Assembly: GCF_000685315.1 (NCBI RefSeq)
Contig: NZ_ARYM01000003.1
Coordinates: forward strand, 124,001-188,000
Reading direction: 5' to 3'
DNA: 64,000 nucleotides
Source: Hyphomonas polymorpha PS728
GTDB taxonomy: Bacteria; Pseudomonadota; Alphaproteobacteria; Caulobacterales; Hyphomonadaceae
Made by a program: the position numbers and the translations under genes
The notes under the pieces: generated by a model
What the model was told of the DNA's origin: nothing
The model's input: only the letters and a program-made list of their open reading frames with translations
Databases searched by the model: none
Shown here: positions 43,149-53,229 of the stretch, piece by piece
Numbering within the stretch: position 1 is the first letter of the stretch
How the letters are laid out: each line of letters starts with the position of its first letter

Positions 43149-43428
43149 CAGGCGCCCTTTCCGGTCAGCGTGTCCCCGGTGCGCCGGGAAACGGTGTGAT
43201 CTCAGCGTTTAGGTCCCGGCTGGCCGCTGCCAAGTCAAACAACCTTTTCGGCAGGCCCATTCCTGCGGCGCATACCGGGTCGCGCGCAGTCTGTCATTCC
43301 TCTGGCTCATGAAGGCAGAGAGCAATGAATTAGTAGAAATCTGAAGACCCGCTCTAGACTCCGGAAAAATAAATTGCCCGATGCGGCCGGACGTCGCCGG
43401 ACATCGGGTATGGGAGCACACAGCAGGC

Positions 43429-44907
43429 ATGAGCAGACAGGTTCCGCTAAGCGACATTCTGGCAGTGCACGCTGCCCGCGACCCTGAACATCCTGCAGTA
43501 ACCCAGGATGGGGTAACGCTGACACGGGCGCAGCTTGATGCGCGCTCCAGCCAGCGGGCGCGTAATCTTGCCCGGGAAGGCGTCGGCTATGGGGATACGA
43601 TCCTTCTGGCGCTTCCCAACTCGCTTGCCTTTTTCGAATACACCTTCGCGATCTGGAAACTCGGCGCGATCCCGTGTCCGGTGTCCCCGCGTTTGCCACA
43701 CCATGAACTTGCCGCGCTGGCCGGACTGGCAAAGCCAGCGGTGGTCATCGGGGCGCAGATCGAAGGTTTCCGGTGCCTGAAGGTGGAGGATCCTTTCGAG
43801 GCCGATGAAAGTATTGATCTGCCGGATAGCCCTGTCTCGCGCCATTGGAAGATCATGACCAGCGGGGGATCAACCGGCAGGCCCAAGCTGATCGTTACCC
43901 AGGCGAAGGCCGTGTTCCCGGCAGAGGGAACCGGATATCTTGGGCAGGAGCCGGAAGGAACTATCCTGAGCCCGGGCCCGCTCTATCACAATGCAGCTTT
44001 CAGCGCGGCGCATCATTGCCTCTTTTCGGGCGGACACGTCGTCTGCATGGGACGCTTTGATGCCGAGCAGGCCCTTCGCCTGATAGATCAGTACAAGGTG
44101 CATCATGTCGTGGTTGTTCCCACGGTCATGAGCCGCATATGGCGTCTGCCGCAGGAAGTGCGCGACAGGTATGACCTCTCCAGCTTGAAGACGGTGGTGC
44201 ATCTTGGGGCCGCCTGTCCGCCCTGGCTGAAGCAGGCCTGGATCGGGTGGATCGGGCCGGAGCGCCTGCTGGAGGTTTATGCTGGAACGGAAGGTATCGG
44301 CTCAACCGCTATCCGGGGGGATGAATGGCTCAGCCGGCCCGGATCTGTCGGCAGGCCAACGCCGGGTGTGCGGCTGCGGATTGCCGATGCCTCGGGGAAT
44401 ACGTGCGTACCCGGAGAGATTGGCGAGATACAGTTCCAGGCTGGCGAGGAAGGGTGTCTGGGCTTTCAGTATATCGGCGCCGTAGCCGGGGTGAGCGATG
44501 GCTGGATTTCGCTGGGGGATCTGGGGCATGTTGATGCCGACGGGTATCTCTATATTTCCGACCGGCGGACGGACATGATTGTTTCGGGCGGGGTGAATCT
44601 GTTCCCGGCCGAGATCGAGGCGGCGCTCGACCGGCATCCTGGCGTGCGCGCGAGTGTTGTCATTGGTTTGCCCGACGATGATCTGGGCAACCGGGCCCAT
44701 GCCATCATTCAGACCGATCCCGGAGGGCCGGTGCCTGGGGCCAAGGAGCTTGTCGCATTTCTCCGCGAGACACTCGCCGGATTCAAGATTCCCAAGACGT
44801 TCGAATTCACGACGCGTGAGCTGAAGGATGAGGCTGGCAAGGTGCGCCGTTCGGCCCTGCGGGCAGAAAGGATCGGCCCTGCCGCCGCGAACGAGGCTGG
44901 CCGCTGA
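43429..44907 (+). CDS. AMP-dependent acyl-CoA ligase
   Basis: A 492-residue ANL-superfamily ligase. The P-loop is KIMTSGGSTGRPKLIV, the adenine-binding motif is VYAGTEGIGST, the hinge Asp region is WISLGDLGHVDADGYLYISDR, and the catalytic Lys is in KDEAGKVRRSALR. The exact P-loop and missing N-terminal extension recall bile-acid-CoA-ligase-like enzymes, so a bulky carboxylate is possible. The start ATG 43429 has only a weak AGCAGG; an upstream in-frame ATG (43381) lacks any site. It heads a ligase-hydratase-transporter run. Confidence 0.88.
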   Translation: MSRQVPLSDILAVHAARDPEHPAVTQDGVTLTRAQLDARSSQRARNLAREGVGYGDTILLALPNSLAFFEYTFAIWKLGAIPCPVSPRLPHHELAALAGLAKPAVVIGAQIEGFRCLKVEDPFEADESIDLPDSPVSRHWKIMTSGGSTGRPKLIVTQAKAVFPAEGTGYLGQEPEGTILSPGPLYHNAAFSAAHHCLFSGGHVVCMGRFDAEQALRLIDQYKVHHVVVVPTVMSRIWRLPQEVRDRYDLSSLKTVVHLGAACPPWLKQAWIGWIGPERLLEVYAGTEGIGSTAIRGDEWLSRPGSVGRPTPGVRLRIADASGNTCVPGEIGEIQFQAGEEGCLGFQYIGAVAGVSDGWISLGDLGHVDADGYLYISDRRTDMIVSGGVNLFPAEIEAALDRHPGVRASVVIGLPDDDLGNRAHAIIQTDPGGPVPGAKELVAFLRETLAGFKIPKTFEFTTRELKDEAGKVRRSALRAERIGPAAANEAGR

Positions 44908-44965
44908 GAGCGGCGCTGGACACGGAGTATTCATGACGCGCATCTACCTAGGAGAGAGCAACGCC

Positions 44966-45724
44966 ATGCCGTTGTCTGACCATACTGTTTCTTTTCAACG
45001 GTCTGGCGCGGTGGCGCTGATCGAGTTTTCCCGTCCGCCGGCAAACTTTTTCAGCGCGGCGCTGCTGGCCGAGATTGTTGCCGCATTCGAGCGGGCCGAT
45101 GCCGACCCTGATGTGCGTGCGATCGTGCTCGCTTCGGAGGGAAAAAACTTCTGCGCCGGCGCGGACCTGGCTGGAGAGGACAATGACCCGTTCGAGCTCT
45201 ACGATCAGGCCGAACGTCTCTTTGCTATTCGCAAGCCAAGTGTTGCGGCTGTGCAGGGCGCCGCGATCGGAGGGGGGCTGGGACTTGCGCTGGCGGCTGA
45301 TTTCCGTGTCGTTACGACGGGAACGCGTCTATCTGCCAACTTCGTCAAGCTGGGGATGCATCCTGGATTTGCGATGACGGCGACGCTGCCCCGGCTCGTG
45401 GGGGATCAGTGCGCCGCACTGCTGTTCCTCACAGCGCGGCGCGTGAGCGGCGAAGAAGCGGTGAATATGGGGTTGGCTGATATCATGGCCCCGTCAGAGG
45501 ATCTGCTCAACGCAGCGCTCGCTCTCGCCGGGGAGATCGCGGAGAATGCGCCCCTCGCGGTGGAGGCGACGCGCGCCACGCTTCGCAGGGAGTTTTCTCA
45601 GCACGTGCGGCGCCATACGTCTGAGGAAGCGCGCCGTCAGCTGCAGCTGAAACGAACCGAGGATTTTGCCGAGGGGGTCGCGGCGGTCAATGCGCGGCGG
45701 CCGGGCAACTGGAAGCGCCGGTGA
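44966..45724 (+). CDS. Enoyl-CoA hydratase/isomerase-family protein
   Basis: A 252-residue crotonase-fold protein, presumably hydrating or isomerising the enoyl-CoA made from the ligase product. The oxyanion-hole segments are NFCAGADLAGE and AVQGAAIGGGLGLALAADFRV. The usual second catalytic-glutamate region reads KLGMHPGFAMTATLPRLVG, in which neither glutamate position is obvious, so it may act as an isomerase or hydrolase. The start is ATG 44966 because AGGAGAG lies 9 bases upstream; an earlier ATG at 44933 is possible. Confidence 0.85.
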   Translation: MPLSDHTVSFQRSGAVALIEFSRPPANFFSAALLAEIVAAFERADADPDVRAIVLASEGKNFCAGADLAGEDNDPFELYDQAERLFAIRKPSVAAVQGAAIGGGLGLALAADFRVVTTGTRLSANFVKLGMHPGFAMTATLPRLVGDQCAALLFLTARRVSGEEAVNMGLADIMAPSEDLLNAALALAGEIAENAPLAVEATRATLRREFSQHVRRHTSEEARRQLQLKRTEDFAEGVAAVNARRPGNWKRR

Positions 45725-45802
45725 CGGATTACCCTAAACAACTCCCTATCTGCTGACTGTGTCTTGAGCACAGAGGCAGCCACCCTTCGAGAGGCCAAAG
45801 CT

Positions 45803-47125
45803 GTGAACACTCCCGTAGTATCCGCTCCAACGGATGAGGCCGCCAGCACCCGGTACCGATACATCGTCGTCTTCGTGCTGGCCTTTGCCTACATGCTCAA
45901 CTATCTCGACCGGCAGATCCTTTCGGTTCTGGCTGAACCGGTCAAACAGGATCTCGGCCTCTCGGACACTCAGCTGGGGATGCTGACGGGCTTGATGTTT
46001 GCCTTGTTCTACACGGTCTTTGGCATTCCGATCGGTGCGCTTGCAGACAGATGGAACCGTGTGCGGATTATTGCGATATCCTGTGGCATCTGGAGTGTGT
46101 TTACGGCGCTGTCGGGCCTGGCCACAAACTTTGTTACACTCGCCCTGGCCCGGATCGGGGTCGGGGTTGGAGAAGCGGGCTGTTCGCCGCCTTCCTATTC
46201 GATCATCTCCGACTACTTTCCCCCCGAGCGGCGGGGCGGCGCGCTGGCACTTTATGTGCTGGGGGTGCCTGCCGGCAGCCTGATCGGCACCATGGCGGCT
46301 GGCTGGATCGCGGTGGAGTATGGCTGGCGGAGTGCGTTTATTCTCGTCGGCCTGCTGGGCGTGTTGTTTGCACCCATTATCGTCTGGGCCGTGCGGGAAC
46401 CTGTGAGGGGCCGCTATGACAACCCGGAAAAGGGCGGCGCGCAGGACACAGGCCAGAAAGCAGGGTTCTTCGAGGCGTTTCTGTTCTTCTGGAAATCCCC
46501 GACGCTTGTGCTCAACGCCATCGCGGCGGGCGCCACATCCTTTGTCAGTTACGGTCTCATGAACTGGGCGCCGGCTTTCCTGATCCGGGTCAGGGGGATG
46601 GAGCTCTCTGAGATCGCGCTCTATTACAGTGTGGCTCTGACGGGCGCTTTGGTTCTCGGCGCATGGCTTGGCAGTGTCATCTCCGACCGCTTTGGCGCGA
46701 AAAACCCGATCTGGTATTCGCTGCTGCCAGGGGCGGGGCTATTGGTGTCTACACCCTTCATATTCGGATTTACCTCTGTGGCAGCCTGGCCGGTTGCCAT
46801 GGCTTTCCTGATCGTGCCGCTGGTGCTCAAATCCGTCTATCTCGTTCCTGCGCTCGCCCTGTTGCAGAACCGGTCGCCAGCGCGCTACCGGGCAACGGCC
46901 AGCGCGGTGATGCTGTTCCTCCTCAACCTTATCGGACTGGGTTGTGGCCCGTTATTCGTCGGTATGATGAGTGACTATCTGGAACCGCGTTATGGCGTGA
47001 TGGCGCTGGGCTACTCGCTGAACTGGCTGGCACCGTTCATGGTACTCGCTTTCCTGCTGCAGTGCGCGACTGCGCTCAGCATGGTGCGGGATCGCCGCCG
47101 CAATGCAAACGCCGGCCACGCCTGA
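45803..47125 (+). CDS. MFS transporter, spinster-like
   Basis: A 440-residue major-facilitator protein with 12 predicted helices. YMLNYLDRQILSVLAEPVKQDLGLSDTQLGMLTGLMFALFY and GALADRWNRVRIIAI are the spinster-type N-terminal and loop 2-3 motifs. A central cytoplasmic loop lies around residues 200-225. I take the GTG at 45803 as start because GAGAGG lies 8 bases upstream; the TTG at 45764 has no such site. It probably moves the substrate across the inner membrane after TonB-dependent entry. Confidence 0.88.
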   Translation: MNTPVVSAPTDEAASTRYRYIVVFVLAFAYMLNYLDRQILSVLAEPVKQDLGLSDTQLGMLTGLMFALFYTVFGIPIGALADRWNRVRIIAISCGIWSVFTALSGLATNFVTLALARIGVGVGEAGCSPPSYSIISDYFPPERRGGALALYVLGVPAGSLIGTMAAGWIAVEYGWRSAFILVGLLGVLFAPIIVWAVREPVRGRYDNPEKGGAQDTGQKAGFFEAFLFFWKSPTLVLNAIAAGATSFVSYGLMNWAPAFLIRVRGMELSEIALYYSVALTGALVLGAWLGSVISDRFGAKNPIWYSLLPGAGLLVSTPFIFGFTSVAAWPVAMAFLIVPLVLKSVYLVPALALLQNRSPARYRATASAVMLFLLNLIGLGCGPLFVGMMSDYLEPRYGVMALGYSLNWLAPFMVLAFLLQCATALSMVRDRRRNANAGHA

Positions 47126-47138
47126 CTATCAGCGCGGA

Positions 47139-48062
47139 TCAGCTCTGCGCGATATGACTTTGTTCAGAGACCGCCGCCTCGCTATCCTTCATGGCGCGGA
47201 TGAAAGCGCGGACAGCCGGTTTGGGCTCCCACCGCTTGCGGGTTGCGCAACACATGACGGACGGGGGGAGCATGTCGCTGAGTTCGAGAATGGCAAACCG
47301 CTCCTGGAAACTGCGGCTCTGGGCGTAGATTGCAGACGTGATGCCGATGGCGTCAGAACGCTCGACGATGCGTTTGACGGCTGGAAAGTAATCAACCGTA
47401 TGCACACAATGCTGCCAGTCCAGGCCCCGGTCTTCGAATAGTTTCCGGATGGCAACGCCATAGGGTCTGCCTTCTGACGGGCTGATATAGGGGTAGTCGG
47501 TCACATCCCGAAGCGACAGGGACGGGCGGCTGAGGAGCGGATGCCCCTGCCGGACAAAATGCACCGAGCGCACCGGGGCAATCGGCTCGCGCCGGATATC
47601 TGGCCAGTCGGCGAAGGCAGCGTCAAAGCCCAGGGCCACATCAATCGCTCCCGTTCTGAGAAGCTGGACGGTGCGTTCAAAGGTGGAGCCGGAAATGTCA
47701 AACCGGATGGACGCATGGCGGCGCAGGAGGAGATTGAGGGCCGGAACCAGGCGCCACTCGATGGAGGCAGGGCCGACGCCGATACGCAGGGCGCCCGCCA
47801 GATGGTCAGTCGTTTTTCCCGGCCGCTGCAGAAGCTCCTTGGTGTCTTCCAGCAGGCGGGAGGCGCGGTCCACAAAATCCCGGCCTTCCTCAGTAAGGAA
47901 TGAGCCCCGCGAGGTTCTGTGGAAGATTGCATACCCAATCTGCTGTTCGAGATCCGCAATGCTCTTGGTGATCGCTGACTGGGTGACGCCAGCATCTTCC
48001 GCGGCCGCCGTAAAGGAACCGTTCCGGGCCACGGCCACTACGTATTTCAGCCTGGCATCCAT
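47139..48062 (-). CDS. LysR-family transcriptional regulator
   Basis: A 307-residue LTTR. The N-terminal helix-turn-helix is MDARLKYVVAVARNGSFTAAAEDAGVTQSAITKSIADLEQQIGYAIFHRTSRGSFLTEEG. The effector domain runs from about residue 90. The start is ATG 48062, preceded by GGAGGG 11 bases away. It is divergent from the SDR-HMGS-thiolase operon, with a palindromic element in between, so it very likely controls that operon and itself. It is convergent with the MFS gene. Confidence 0.93.
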   Translation of the reverse strand: MDARLKYVVAVARNGSFTAAAEDAGVTQSAITKSIADLEQQIGYAIFHRTSRGSFLTEEGRDFVDRASRLLEDTKELLQRPGKTTDHLAGALRIGVGPASIEWRLVPALNLLLRRHASIRFDISGSTFERTVQLLRTGAIDVALGFDAAFADWPDIRREPIAPVRSVHFVRQGHPLLSRPSLSLRDVTDYPYISPSEGRPYGVAIRKLFEDRGLDWQHCVHTVDYFPAVKRIVERSDAIGITSAIYAQSRSFQERFAILELSDMLPPSVMCCATRKRWEPKPAVRAFIRAMKDSEAAVSEQSHIAQS

Positions 48063-48195: not shown

Positions 48196-49101
48196 ATGCT
48201 GGAAGATAAAGTCGTCATCGTCACCGGGGCCGGCCGGGGGATCGGCCGGGCCATAGCCCGGCTCTGCGCTGCAGAGGGCGCGCGGGTCGTCGTCAATGAT
48301 TTGGGCGGAGATCCCGCCGGGCGTGGCGCGGATGCAAGCCCAGCTGAAACGGTCGTGGACGAAATCCGTGCCGCAGGTGGGCACGCGGTCGCCAATACGG
48401 GCAGTGTCGCTACGCAGGCGGGCGCCGCTTCAATCGTGCAGGCTGCAATTGACGCGTTTGGACGGGTGGACGCGGTCGTCAACAATGCGGGCTTTCTGCG
48501 GGACGCGATGTTCCACAAGCTGTCTCCTCAGGACTGGGCCGATGTGCTGGACGTGCATCTCAATGGCACCTTCCTCGTTTCCCGCGCTGCCGCGCCGTAT
48601 TTCCGGGCGCAGCAGTCAGGTACCTTTGTCCACTTCACCTCCACAACAGCGCTTTTGGGAAATCGGGGGCAGGCCAATTATGCGGCGGCAAAGTCCGGCG
48701 TCTTGGGGCTGTCTTATGCCATTGCCCTGGACATGGAGCGCTTCGGGGTGCGCTCCAACTGCATCGCACCGACAGCATGGACGCGCCTGGTTGGCACTGT
48801 GGCAACTGAGAGTGAGGCGGACCAGAAGCGGCTGGAGGCCGTTCGCGCAATGACGCCGGAGAAGATCGCGCCCCTGGTTGCCTATCTCTGCACGGACAGG
48901 TCCGCCGCGATTACCGGGCAGACGTTTGGTATACGGAAGGATGAAATTTTTTTATACAGCCGCCCGAAGATATTGCGGACGATGCACAATGCCAACGGCT
49001 GGACGCTCGATTCTCTGGACGCGCAGCTGGTGCCAGGCTTTCGCGGTAGTTTCGAGCCTCTACACACGACTCCTGATACAATCGCCTGGGAGCCTCTATG
49101 A
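48196..49101 (+). CDS. Short-chain dehydrogenase, HSD17B4-like 3-hydroxyacyl-CoA dehydrogenase
   Basis: A 301-residue SDR. TGAGRGIG is the cofactor loop, NNAG is present, and the catalytic motif is YAAAKS with Ser in HFTSTTALLG. The N-terminal VVNDLGGDPAGRGADASPAETVVDEIRAAGGHAVAN is typical of peroxisomal multifunctional-enzyme-2-like dehydrogenases that oxidise (3R)-hydroxyacyl-CoA. A C-terminal extension of about 60 residues follows the fold. It overlaps the HMGS-like gene by four bases, linking it to the thiolase step. Confidence 0.88.
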   Translation: MLEDKVVIVTGAGRGIGRAIARLCAAEGARVVVNDLGGDPAGRGADASPAETVVDEIRAAGGHAVANTGSVATQAGAASIVQAAIDAFGRVDAVVNNAGFLRDAMFHKLSPQDWADVLDVHLNGTFLVSRAAAPYFRAQQSGTFVHFTSTTALLGNRGQANYAAAKSGVLGLSYAIALDMERFGVRSNCIAPTAWTRLVGTVATESEADQKRLEAVRAMTPEKIAPLVAYLCTDRSAAITGQTFGIRKDEIFLYSRPKILRTMHNANGWTLDSLDAQLVPGFRGSFEPLHTTPDTIAWEPL

Positions 49102-50564
49102 TGGCTGGCATACTGTCCTATGGAAGTTACCTGCCGATGCGCCGCTTGCCGCGGCAGGTGATCGCCGATGCTACAAGCTGGTTCAACGGCGCCCTCTCAG
49201 GCCTTGGGCGCGGGGAACGCAGCGTTGCCAACTGGGACGAAGACACTTTGACGATGGCAGTGGAAGCCTGCCGGAATTGCCTGCCGGAAGCCGGCCGCGA
49301 TGCCATTGGCCAGCTGGTTCTTGCTTCGACAACACTGCCTTTTGCGGATCGCCAGAATGCGGGCATCGCGAAAGAAGCATTGTTGCTGAGCGACCGCACG
49401 CATACGCTCGACATAACCGGTTCGCAAAGGGGGGGCACGTCGGGCCTGATTGCGGCCCTCGAGGCAACTGTATCTGGCAAGACCACGCTGCTGGCGGCCG
49501 CTGACCGGCGCCACGCGCCGGCTGCTTCTGCGGCACAGATGATCAATGGCGACGCGGGCGCAGCGCTGCTTGTCGGCCCGGGCGAACCGCTGGCGGAACT
49601 CGTCTGTGCCCGTTCTATGTCTGTAGATTTCGTAGACCGGTTCCGGGCGAGTGACGCACGCCACGATTACGAGTGGGAAGGGCGTTGGATACGCGAAGAA
49701 GGCTATATGAGCCTTGTGACCCAACTGGTGACTGAGACCCTGGGCGAAGCCGGGCTTCGCGCAGAGGAGGTTGATCATTTCCTGTTTGAAACGCCGATGC
49801 CGGGCGTAGAGGCCCGGCTGGCAAAAGCTTTGGGCATTCGCGCGGGCGCAGTGGCCCGGCCCCTGTTCCTTGAGGTAGGCTACACCGGTTGCGCCCATCC
49901 ATTGCTGCAACTGGCCGCAACGCTGGAGCGGGCCACTGCGGGGGAGGTTATCTGTCTTGTGGGGTTCGGTCAGGGCTGTGACGTGCTGCTCCTGCGCGTG
50001 ACCGCCGCCAATGATGGCCGCAAGCCGGCAGCGAGATTTCAGGACCAGTTGGCACGGCGCAAGGTGGAAACCAACTATACGCGTTTTCTGTATTTTTCTG
50101 GAGAGTTGGAATTTGAAGAGGGCATGCGGGCGGAGCTGGATATCAAGACCCCGCCTTCGATGCTCTATCGCGACCGCAAGACGATTCTGGGGCTAGTTGG
50201 GGGAAAATGCCGTGAGACCGGCGTGGTGCAATATCCGCGGTCTGATGTGTCAGTGGCCGGTAATGCCCGCACGCGCGGCACGCAGGAAGATTATCCGCTC
50301 GCAGACCGAATTGCCCGTGTGCGGTCATTTACTGCAGACTACCTTGCCTATTCACCGGATCCGCCGAGCTGTTACGGTATTGTAGAGTTCGAGGGGGGCG
50401 GGCGGATGATTGCGGATTTTACTGACCTGCCGGAGCCTTCCCTGGAAGTGGGGCAGGCCGTCAGGATGGTTTTCAGATTAAAGCGCACAGACCAGCGCGG
50501 CTTCCGCCACTATTTCTGGAAGGCCGTGCCGGTCACCGATCAGAACACCGGAAGGCAGGATTGA
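49098..50564 (+). CDS. HMG-CoA synthase-like protein fused to a DUF35/OB domain
   Basis: A 488-residue two-domain protein. Residues 1-320 have the thiolase fold of HMG-CoA synthase (GILSYGSYLP, ERSVANWDEDTLTMAVEA, WEGRWIREEGYMS). Residues about 335-480 form an OB-fold of the DUF35 kind with a residual zinc-ribbon (GGKCRETGVVQYPRSD, one cysteine left). By eye the nucleophile Cys position is Gln110 (DITGSQRGGT), the general-acid His is Glu231 (FLFETPMPG), and the Glu79 position is not acidic. It therefore looks catalytically inert and scaffold-like. It is followed 3 bases later by a thiolase gene. Confidence 0.85.
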   Translation: MMAGILSYGSYLPMRRLPRQVIADATSWFNGALSGLGRGERSVANWDEDTLTMAVEACRNCLPEAGRDAIGQLVLASTTLPFADRQNAGIAKEALLLSDRTHTLDITGSQRGGTSGLIAALEATVSGKTTLLAAADRRHAPAASAAQMINGDAGAALLVGPGEPLAELVCARSMSVDFVDRFRASDARHDYEWEGRWIREEGYMSLVTQLVTETLGEAGLRAEEVDHFLFETPMPGVEARLAKALGIRAGAVARPLFLEVGYTGCAHPLLQLAATLERATAGEVICLVGFGQGCDVLLLRVTAANDGRKPAARFQDQLARRKVETNYTRFLYFSGELEFEEGMRAELDIKTPPSMLYRDRKTILGLVGGKCRETGVVQYPRSDVSVAGNARTRGTQEDYPLADRIARVRSFTADYLAYSPDPPSCYGIVEFEGGGRMIADFTDLPEPSLEVGQAVRMVFRLKRTDQRGFRHYFWKAVPVTDQNTGRQD

Positions 50565-50567
50565 ACC

Positions 50568-51761
50568 ATGGCAAGCGGCATCAGAGACAAGGTAGCCATT
50601 CTGGGAATGGGGTGCAGCCGGTTTGGGGAGCGCTGGGATACGGATGGGCCGTCGCTGATCGTTGAAGCGTTTCAGGAAGCCATCGCGGATGCCGATATTG
50701 ATCCGGGAGAGCTGCAGGCTGGATGGTTCGGACATGCCGGGAATGCGGTCGGACCAGGTGCCGTGCCGCTGGCCCTTGCGCTCAGATTGCACAATATTCC
50801 CGTGACGCGGGTGGAGAATGCCTGTGCTACCGGCACAGAGGCCCTTAGAGGCGCCGCTTATGCAGTCGCCAGCGGGGCGTGTGACTTTGCCTTTGCGCTG
50901 GGTGTCGAGAAGCTGAAGGATTCCGGGTACGGAGGGCTTCCGGGAGGATCGCGAGGGCCATTCTACGACGCCACGAATGCCAACATGACAGCGCCGGGAA
51001 CCTTTGCGCAACTTGCTTCAGGCTACCGGGCCCGTCACGGCATGGCAGCAGACGACCTGAAGCGGGCGATGGCCCATGTCTCCGTCAAAAGCCATGCGAA
51101 CGCGACCTTGAACCCGAAAGCCCATCTGCGAACACCGATCACGATGGAGCGGGCTGTAAACGCACCCCTCGTGGCGGCGCCGTTGGGGCTTTTTGACTGT
51201 TGTGGCGTGTCGGATGGGGCAGCTTGCGCCATCGTAACACGGCCGGAAATCGCCCGCGCTCTGGGCAAGAAAGACATCGTCACCATAAAGGCGCTGCAAC
51301 TGGCCGCAACAGGAGGCTGGGAAGCGCAGGGGGCGGGCTGGGACTATAGCTATGTTCCGACGACGCGCGCGGCCGCGGCGAGGGCTTACAGTGAGGCTGG
51401 CATATCCGATCCCGCGCGCGACATCGGACTTACGGAAGTGCATGACTGTTTCTCGATCACGGAACTGGTGACAATGGAGGACCTCGGCCTGAGCAAGGAC
51501 GGCGCGGCCTGGCGCGATGTTCTGGACGGTCGGTTCGATGCAGACGGCCAAATCCCCTGCCAGATTGATGGCGGTCTGAAATGCTTCGGGCATCCGATCG
51601 GTGCGACAGGGATCCGAATGGTCTATGAAAACTACCTCCAGCTTTTGGGGCGGGCTGGCGAACGCCAGGTCAGCAAAGATATCGGGTTCGCACTCTCTCA
51701 TAATCTGGGCGGGGCACCCTTTCACAACATCTGCTCTATCGCGATCGTGGGACGGGGTTGA
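50568..51761 (+). CDS. SCP2-type thiolase
   Basis: A 397-residue thiolase of the SCP-x/lipid-transfer group. The nucleophile is Cys86 in RVENACATGTEALRGA. The second-half motifs EVHDCFSITEL and KCFGHPIGATGIRM supply the Cys and His of the acid-base pair. It cleaves 3-ketoacyl-CoA or, as in steroid-side-chain Ltp2-like aldolases, does a retro-aldol with a DUF35 partner. The adjacent HMGS-DUF35 fusion gene (3-base gap) encodes the obvious partner. Confidence 0.9.
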   Translation: MASGIRDKVAILGMGCSRFGERWDTDGPSLIVEAFQEAIADADIDPGELQAGWFGHAGNAVGPGAVPLALALRLHNIPVTRVENACATGTEALRGAAYAVASGACDFAFALGVEKLKDSGYGGLPGGSRGPFYDATNANMTAPGTFAQLASGYRARHGMAADDLKRAMAHVSVKSHANATLNPKAHLRTPITMERAVNAPLVAAPLGLFDCCGVSDGAACAIVTRPEIARALGKKDIVTIKALQLAATGGWEAQGAGWDYSYVPTTRAAAARAYSEAGISDPARDIGLTEVHDCFSITELVTMEDLGLSKDGAAWRDVLDGRFDADGQIPCQIDGGLKCFGHPIGATGIRMVYENYLQLLGRAGERQVSKDIGFALSHNLGGAPFHNICSIAIVGRG

Positions 51762-51864: not shown

Positions 51865-53229
51865 TCATGCAATCTCCCTGACGCGCCGCAGTACGGCCTC
51901 TATTTCCGATGGGGAGTTGCGGATGCTTGGTGTCAGGCGGGCATGGGGCACTGCATAGGGCGCCGCTGAAGCTATTATGCGATGATGGCGCAGACGTTCG
52001 ACAGTCTCGCGCGCGGATTGCCCTTCGATATCGAAAGAGACGATACCGGCAGAGAAGGCGCGGTCCAGGGGCGTATGGACAGTCACGCCGGGGATGGAGG
52101 CAAGCCCTTCCTTGAGCTGGGAAGCGAGCGCGTGGGTGCGATCGGCAACCGCCGCCTTTCCGATCTCCATTTGCCACGCAACGGCGGCTGGCACCGCGAG
52201 CTTGTGCTCGAACGCCTGAAAGCCGCCGGGCGTCATGCGTTCCGCATTGTTGTCCCGGACCTCATCATCGTCCAGAATCCACGCATCGAAAGCGCCGCTA
52301 TTTTCAATGAAACTAGGGACCGACGGGACCAGCATTTCATAGCCTTTTGACCCTGCCGCAATAAAGCCGGTGCCGCGCGGGCCAAACAGCCATTTGTGGC
52401 AACCCGACATGAAGAAATCACATCCCAGATCGGAGAGTTCAAAATCCTCGACGCCAAATCCGTGTACCCCGTCTATTCCGACGAGGATCTGGCGTGAAGC
52501 TGGCCGGCTGGCGTTCAGATCTGCGATGGCGCTGGTAATTGCATGGACTGGCAGCTTGTAACCGGTGCTGGAATGCACCCATGTGAGCGCGACGAGCCGT
52601 GTCGCATTGCTGACGCCGGAAAGTATTCGGGCAACAGCCTCTTCTTCAGTAAGGGTAGGTGGGCGGTCGTAAAGCGGCACAGTGCGGACGATGGCGCCAT
52701 ATCGGGACGTCATCTGACGGAGGGCTTCGAAGGTGACGTAATAATCCTGCTCGGTGGTCAGCACCTCGTCGCCTGGAGCGAGCACCAATCCGTTGTAAGT
52801 TATGCCTACGGCATTCGTCGTACTGTTGGTGAGGGCGATCCTGTCTGTTCGTGTTCCGAGATAGGTGGCGATTGCTTCGCGAGCGGCTGACAGGCCAGGC
52901 CGCATATGTTCTTCCAGATAAATGACGGGATTGCGGTCAAGGCCGTTGCGATGCTCCTCGATGGCGTTTCGAACGGGCGCGGGATGGGACGCCAGCAGCA
53001 TGGCGCTCATATGAATAAAATCCGTATCAAGATTGAAATCGGAACGGATACGGTCCCATACATCCGCAGCGGGCCCAGAATTTTGATCGGGCAGGTCTGT
53101 ACGGGCATCCGGCGCGGGTGCGCTTTGGTGCGGACTGTCCGGGTTCTGGCCGGAACCGCAGGCAGCAGCCAATCCTGTCAGCGCAATTCCTGTTCCTGCT
53201 CTCAGGACGCTCCGCCGGCTTACCACCAT
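51865..53229 (-). CDS. Tat-exported lipoprotein with class V aminotransferase fold
   Basis: A 454-residue PLP enzyme of the isopenicillin-N-epimerase/cysteine-desulfurase family. Twin arginines in VSRRSVLRAG (Arg5-Arg6) and a lipobox LAAAC with Cys24 predict Tat export and lipidation. That suits a protein that folds with its cofactor in the cytoplasm. A Pro/Asp-rich linker (26-52) follows. The PLP lysine is Lys279 in SGCHKWLFGPRGTGF, and VGIDGVHGFG holds the cofactor Asp. The substrate is unknown. It is divergent from cinA and convergent with the thiolase gene. Confidence 0.88.
   Translation of the reverse strand: MVVSRRSVLRAGTGIALTGLAAACGSGQNPDSPHQSAPAPDARTDLPDQNSGPAADVWDRIRSDFNLDTDFIHMSAMLLASHPAPVRNAIEEHRNGLDRNPVIYLEEHMRPGLSAAREAIATYLGTRTDRIALTNSTTNAVGITYNGLVLAPGDEVLTTEQDYYVTFEALRQMTSRYGAIVRTVPLYDRPPTLTEEEAVARILSGVSNATRLVALTWVHSSTGYKLPVHAITSAIADLNASRPASRQILVGIDGVHGFGVEDFELSDLGCDFFMSGCHKWLFGPRGTGFIAAGSKGYEMLVPSVPSFIENSGAFDAWILDDDEVRDNNAERMTPGGFQAFEHKLAVPAAVAWQMEIGKAAVADRTHALASQLKEGLASIPGVTVHTPLDRAFSAGIVSFDIEGQSARETVERLRHHRIIASAAPYAVPHARLTPSIRNSPSEIEAVLRRVREIA

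Follow-up and report, generated by a model that had tools for sequence, protein, structure and literature searches.

We describe here a gene of the alphaproteobacterium Hyphomonas polymorpha PS728, located in a 64,000-nucleotide stretch of contig NZ_ARYM01000003.1 (positions 124,001 to 188,000; hereafter the window), whose product joins a domain related to 3-hydroxy-3-methylglutaryl-CoA synthase (HMGS) to a C-terminal DUF35 domain. The HMGS-like half has lost the catalytic triad of the enzyme, and the gene directly downstream encodes a thiolase with intact catalytic residues. This triad loss, the fusion in cis, the preserved thiolase residues and the steady co-occurrence of the two genes are all visible in alignments and gene positions. 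We propose, with a probability of about 0.6, that the fusion protein is a non-catalytic accessory subunit which would dock the neighbouring thiolase through DUF35 and shape its CoA/acyl pocket, in beta-oxidation that is catabolic and often of the (3R) type. An earlier note on this DNA had placed the two genes at 49098-51761, with the thiolase gene starting 3 bases after the fusion gene; both points were confirmed.

An HMGS-like domain fused to DUF35

The N-terminal part of the fusion (about 335 amino acids) matches solved HMGS-type proteins (9skh_A, 3.2e-28; 5m3k_A, 3.2e-23; 6esq_I, 1.3e-19), its top solved relatives being two PhlA chains, 9vbo and the archaeal HMGS chain 6esq_I. Profile-to-profile comparison with 18 archaeal HMGS gave an hhalign probability of 99.85 (E 6.5e-31), and a match to ACP_syn_III_C at residues 216-294 lies just under the Pfam threshold (25.7 vs 26.6 bits). 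Both NCBIfam HMGS models score below their cut-offs on this half (NF003274, 150.9 vs 244 bits; TIGR00748, 104.3 vs 353.35). The C-terminal part contains the OB fold of OB_ChsH2_C/DUF35 (PF01796, residues 405-460; 1.3e-9, 38.3 bits vs a cut-off of 27.1), and residues 357-481 match the DUF35 chain 6esq_E (3.6e-5), in agreement with the cis fusion recognized in the earlier note.

At least 3708 clustered proteins match the fusion query at E <=1e-10, some of which may fall outside the fusion family. The homologs P0013, P0015, P0054 and P0191 are named 3-hydroxy-3-methylglutaryl CoA synthase or hydroxymethylglutaryl-CoA synthase in their source databases, though members of the family lack the catalytic residues. 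No three-domain fusion was present among 99 loci, where the largest corrected open reading frame (ORF) is at most 509 amino acids. Apparent fusion-plus-thiolase proteins of 892-913 amino acids at three loci were ruled out, a stop codon lying between both genes in each. The genome scan also listed two long open frames, one of 890 amino acids with a stop inside (G150) and one of 759 (G544). PDB entries 9vbo/9vbt contain a solved HMGS-like chain that lacks the Cys and has Glu in its place at the nucleophile column, together with a thiolase-like chain in the same entry.

Loss of the catalytic triad

The archaeal catalytic residues Glu82, Cys114 and His238, which are the same in 18/18 aligned archaeal HMGS, correspond to T78, Q110 and E231 of the window fusion; the alignment to 6esq_I, the profile comparison and a joint alignment all agree on this. 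The earlier view of the HMGS half as lacking its catalytic residues thus stands. We extended the comparison to 345 aligned rows, comprising the 120 closest homologs, 118 homologs of a Rhodococcus member (118 of its 120 best, two of <=430 amino acids having been removed; those named are actinobacteria), 99 loci and 8 plasmid loci; the counts are unthinned and the rows partly overlap (L105 is P0121). At the nucleophile column, 110, Cys occurs in 0/345 rows, and the residues found are Q (176), A (112), L (37), M (6), R (6), G (2), S (2), P (2), T (1) and V (1). The Glu position, column 78, is T in 340 rows, V in 2, A in 2 and S in 1. No acidic residue occurs in columns 77-80 of the 345 rows. What the earlier note called the non-acidic 'Glu79 region' corresponds to T78 in the numbering of the window protein. 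Column 231, the His position, is P, V, A, G, S, T or E in 342/345 rows, with I, C and H once each.

The triad has not moved nearby; a triad placed elsewhere was one of two findings that the earlier note had named as able to overturn its reading. In columns 104-116 no Cys recurs, the sporadic cases numbering 1/120, 4/118, 7/99 and 2/8 in the closest homologs, Rhodococcus set, loci and plasmid loci, respectively. That this half has remained an HMG-CoA-forming enzyme, using residues at other positions, is very improbable: the fold-level match to HMGS and the database names would fit such an activity, whereas all three catalytic columns are substituted, no Cys recurs in their vicinity and the scores fall short of the curated HMGS cut-offs.

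The substitute for the nucleophile depends on the clade, being mostly Gln or Leu in proteobacteria and Ala in actinobacteria. The suggestion that the GSQRGGT stretch might be family-wide accordingly applies to the nearer relatives (Q in 102/120 closest homologs) and fails further away (A in 111/118 homologs of the Rhodococcus member). Gln as a family-wide catalytic residue was rejected on the variation of column 110 across the 345 rows. The KSQ domains of polyketide synthases offer a parallel for a decarboxylase with Gln in place of Cys, and the HMGS half might by analogy be a decarboxylase feeding the thiolase. The prevalence of Gln among close homologs, together with the conserved D105, R111 and T78, is in line with this idea. 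A required Gln should not drift, yet other clades whose partner is of this type have Leu, Met, Arg or Ala at column 110, and the catalytic His is gone as well; we thus consider a decarboxylase highly unlikely.

After filtering at 75% identity (171 rows), D105, G261, G264 and G293 do not vary at all, and the R111 position has R in 157 and K in 14 rows. We read this pattern as chemistry probably given up with the frame of the pocket kept, and a fixed Thr in place of Glu. A scaffold only, as the earlier note had pictured the HMGS half, may be too little, the residues around the dead site having stayed conserved. One divergent member, encoded on a Sphingopyxis macrogoltabida plasmid (L107, 9980-11410) beside a long acyl-CoA gene cluster, has Arg at the nucleophile column, carries the only His seen at column 231 and lacks any Cys in the ribbon.

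All-or-none loss of the zinc ribbon

In place of the four zinc-binding Cys of DUF35, the ribbon of the window fusion contains only C371. The number of ribbon Cys is distributed in an all-or-none manner over the filtered rows, with 4-5 in 83/171, 0-1 in 88/171 and 2 or 3 in none. On the tree, the ribbon state requires 3 changes (FastTree, with one long branch, L107). The window fusion belongs to the ribbon-less group, and the position of C371 is Cys in 111/120 closest homologs. This all-or-none loss in about half of the sampled family appears to be new.

The thiolase partner

The downstream protein scores 648.1 bits against the NCBIfam model PRK06157 (cut-off 403). Its nearest solved structures are 6esq_A (2.9e-55, the best) and 7yvy_A, and it also matches 7pxp_C (2.2e-44) and the PhlC chain 9skh_I (9.6e-22). 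The residues C86, H292, C294, C339 and H342 are invariant in 87/87 aligned thiolases (86 loci and the window; 9 of 95 were dropped as too short). The conservation of Cys86, His292, Cys294 and His342 is what would be expected of the active thiolase that the earlier note had assumed.

The linkage of the two genes, also put forward in that note, is borne out. A same-strand thiolase was found by tblastn downstream of the fusion gene at 95/99 loci. At 93 of these, no more than 300 nt separate it from the fusion stop; at the other two the distance is 1189 nt (L010) and 826 nt (L015). At three of the four remaining loci (L088, L092 and L097) the sequence ends 35, 277 and 15 nt past the match, and the genome of the fourth (L021) has the gene 1954 nt downstream. 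Among 190 alphaproteobacterial genomes, 37 have a fusion match at E 0.001, of which 32 are near full length (<=3.6e-81) and the other five weak or partial. An orthologous thiolase (E <=1e-100) is likewise present in 32/190 genomes, which are exactly those with the near full-length fusion (Fisher value 5e-37, which ignores relatedness). The orthologous thiolase lies within 200 nt for 30/34 fusion genes. At 1e-30, the fusion is found in 10/398 genomes of the phylum, the window's own counted. A second orthologous thiolase, without a fusion match, occurs in genome G082 near the start of a contig (C21:916-2103).

The HMGS half changes fastest: the 87 paired rows average an identity of 0.526 there, against 0.559 in DUF35 and 0.730 in the thiolase.

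Metabolic context

The gene order in the window is acyl-CoA ligase, enoyl-CoA hydratase, major facilitator superfamily (MFS) transporter, a divergent LysR-type regulator and then short-chain dehydrogenase/reductase (SDR), fusion and thiolase. The best solved matches of the SDR are (3R)-hydroxyacyl-CoA dehydrogenases of multifunctional enzyme type 2 (MFE-2; 2et6, 4.4e-103 over two stretches; 1zbq, 1e-55). A MaoC hydratase often separates the SDR from the fusion in relatives, and the one at locus L102 matches hydratase 2 of human MFE-2 (1s9c, 3.3e-53, second to 3khp). In 70 of the 80 named-genome loci at least 3 kb of upstream sequence is available; SDR and MaoC genes are both present in 19 of these, SDR only in 8, MaoC only in 3 and neither in 40. 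Acyl-CoA metabolic genes (hydratases, dehydrogenases, CoA ligases or CoA transferases) were found in 8/8 plasmid regions examined, out of 45 records with a match, and two of the 8 also encode ring-hydroxylating dioxygenases. The 4.05 Mb genome has 44 matches to the N-terminal domain of acyl-CoA dehydrogenases, all of them outside the window.

A catabolic setting and a DUF35-bearing partner of a thiolase-fold enzyme are also features of retro-aldolase pairs such as Ltp2-ChsH2 or Sal-Shy, and the fusion and thiolase could form another such pair. In PMC12329534, aldolase catalysis is assigned to paired Tyr (Ltp2) or to Tyr302/Cys304 (Sal), in contrast to the Cys86, His292 and His342 kept in 87/87 thiolases here. 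In addition, the dehydrogenase gene directly upstream would supply a 3-oxo substrate for a thiolase. Retro-aldol cleavage by this pair seems to us distinctly unlikely.

Origin of the family and related systems

In a tree with three KAS III-like proteins from the same genome as outgroup, the fusion family forms a single clade (support 97/93). PhlA falls outside it, beside the active archaeal HMGS (99/96). A tree constrained to unite PhlA with the fusion family costs 11.07 log-likelihood units (p-AU 0.042, from the approximately unbiased test), a result that the long outgroup branches make borderline. Taken at face value, the tree suggests that the nucleophile was lost at least twice.

Compared with the window protein, L022 of the gammaproteobacterium Hydrocarboniphaga effusa has an identity of 0.83 in the thiolase, 0.72 in DUF35 and 0.51 in the HMGS half. 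At 1e-30, four genomes from the same genus or family as the window (G183, G392, G479 and G492) have no fusion match. Horizontal transfer is a possible explanation of these identities and of the four matchless near relatives.

The closest published parallel is PhlACB, the acyltransferase complex in the synthesis of the antibiotic 2,4-diacetylphloroglucinol, in which a Cys-less HMGS-like subunit, a DUF35 protein and a Cys-active thiolase-fold partner come together as they may do here. According to PMC6392133, PhlA has neither the catalytic Cys nor the Glu of HMGS (Gly115 and Cys83 instead), PhlB (DUF35) bridges PhlA and the thiolase PhlC, a continuous cavity is lined by all three, all three are needed, and only PhlC residues are concluded to act. 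PhlB is nevertheless a separate protein, whereas DUF35 is fused in cis here, and PhlACB is biosynthetic. The fusion and thiolase might in the same manner form a complex that builds C-C bonds or transfers acyl groups independently of CoA. The three shared folds, the Cys-less HMGS half and the presence of PhlC among the thiolase relatives speak in favour of this. It is countered by the position of PhlA with archaeal HMGS and the borderline rejection of a joint clade, by the nearest solved thiolases (6esq_A and 7yvy_A, not PhlC), and by the neighbouring ligase, hydratase, dehydrogenase and transporter genes. We regard a biosynthetic complex as unlikely.

The archaeal acetoacetyl-CoA thiolase/HMGS/DUF35 complex (6ESQ) has the same three folds and contributes the best solved match of the thiolase and the DUF35 match of the fusion. 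It differs in that its HMGS is active (Cys114, Glu82) and its components are three separate proteins, as described in PMC6392133 and PMC12329534. In ChsH1-ChsH2-Ltp2 and Shy-Sal, a DUF35 domain fused to another domain docks a thiolase-fold enzyme, as reported in PMC12329534 and PMC11321319; the latter describes the MaoC domain of ChsH2 as lacking catalytic residues and adapted to steroid rings, its fused DUF35 binding Ltp2. The fused domain of these systems is MaoC and the partner an aldolase, unlike in the window. The benzoylsuccinyl-CoA thiolase BbsAB and IpfDE likewise combine DUF35 with a catabolic thiolase-fold enzyme (7pxp_C; ipfD/ipfE genes), but without an HMGS half. BbsA is a separate subunit, and IpfE is a stand-alone DUF35 protein; IpfE was rejected as a characterized member of the fusion family on the evidence of pIBU218, which shows a DUF35 protein of 132 amino acids.

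The earlier note had suggested an undescribed class of thiolase accessory subunit. This is too strong, because PhlA has already been published (PMC6392133), and DUF35 fused to thiolase-superfamily members, as well as the active/inactive pair in phlABC, were noted in 2010 in PMC2954200, which makes the kind known. What appears to be new is the PhlA-independent loss of the triad (with its borderline support), the cis fusion as a steady partner of a catabolic thiolase, and the partial loss of the zinc ribbon.

Proposed role

In the arrangement that we favour, DUF35 would dock onto the thiolase and keep the pseudo-HMGS half at the entrance of its active site, much as DUF35 links the thiolase to HMGS in the archaeal complex and to PhlA in PhlACB. 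The pocket of the dead HMGS half would then form part of a CoA/acyl-binding vestibule for bulky or branched 3-oxoacyl-CoA, which the thiolase would cleave with its own Cys86. In some relatives, and partly in the window, the pair would follow an MFE-2-type (R)-specific hydratase/dehydrogenase and thus carry out the last step of a turn of catabolic beta-oxidation. The fusion would join the ideas behind PhlACB and ChsH2, its inert domain being able to accommodate the acyl tail while the domain used for docking is part of the same chain. The physical complex, the role of the pocket, the degradative direction and the substrate class are inferred.

Several observations weigh against this proposal. 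That the dead site, and Thr78 in particular, is conserved could also point to a role in chemistry. An upstream SDR is missing in 43/70 loci, and 40/70 lack SDR and MaoC alike, so that the (3R) reading does not apply throughout. The thiolase lies 865-1954 nt away in 4/34 cases, and the rows of the co-occurrence table are phylogenetically non-independent. The mirror-tree correlation of fusion and thiolase (0.893) is barely above those of fusion and SDR (0.861) and of thiolase and SDR (0.86) over the same 33 rows, and does not single out the thiolase. Finally, according to PMC11321319, DUF35 is seemingly unimportant for Ltp2 or hydratase activity; docking thus need not influence catalysis.

A bolder version, to which we give somewhat less than an even chance, is that the family represents a large class of pseudo-HMGS/DUF35 proteins, frequently listed in databases as HMG-CoA synthase, of an origin independent of PhlA and steadily partnered with a catabolic thiolase, in which the dead pocket would serve as an acyl-tail vestibule that sets the substrate range. 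About half of its members would lack the zinc ribbon, mostly with one Cys kept. In bacteria, the class might correspond to peroxisomal MFE-2 plus SCPx, a dead enzyme having replaced the sterol carrier. If members are indeed thiolase subunits, their present names predict a mevalonate step where none exists, and the thiolase may be studied without its partner. The family also provides a test case for how a dead enzyme is retained to bind a partner, since its natural members differ in the residue at the former nucleophile position and in the presence or absence of the zinc ribbon.

Locus layout

The features of the locus are listed in Table 1. The SDR gene overlaps the fusion gene by 4 nt.

Table 1. 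Features of the fusion-thiolase locus (window coordinates)
Feature	Position	Strand	Basis
HMGS-like/DUF35 fusion gene, 488 aa	49098..50564	+	ORF list; HMGS-type matches; OB_ChsH2_C
HMGS-like (thiolase-superfamily) domain, about residues 1-335	49098..50102	+	Alignment to 6esq_I, PhlA and 9vbo; hhalign with archaeal HMGS
T78 codon, opposite HMGS catalytic Glu (Glu82 of 6esq_I)	49329..49331	+	Three alignments; Thr in 340/345 rows
Q110 codon, opposite HMGS nucleophile Cys (Cys114 of 6esq_I)	49425..49427	+	Alignments
E231 codon, opposite HMGS general-acid His (His238 of 6esq_I)	49788..49790	+	Alignments
DUF35 domain (remnant zinc ribbon and OB fold), residues 357-481	50166..50540	+	6esq_E match; PF01796 at residues 405-460
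Degenerate zinc ribbon, residues 366-396, C371 its sole Cys	50193..50285	+	Cys counts in alignment
SCP2-type thiolase (NCBIfam PRK06157), 397 aa, with C86, H292, C294, H342	50568..51761	+	Profile and structure matches
SDR, nearest solved relatives MFE-2 (3R)-hydroxyacyl-CoA dehydrogenases	48196..49101	+	4-nt overlap with fusion gene
LysR-type regulator, divergent from SDR-fusion-thiolase genes	47139..48056	-	
MFS transporter	45764..47125	+	Profile match
Enoyl-CoA hydratase/isomerase family protein	44963..45724	+	Internal ATG taken; longest ORF begins at 44828
AMP-dependent acyl-CoA ligase	43381..44907	+	Profile matches

Genes for an aldehyde dehydrogenase, a GMC oxidoreductase and a TonB-dependent receptor are also present upstream in the window. 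At 51865-53229, on the reverse strand, lies the gene of a class V aminotransferase-family protein whose N-terminus, judged by eye, resembles a twin-arginine/lipoprotein signal, which is odd for a pyridoxal phosphate (PLP) enzyme.

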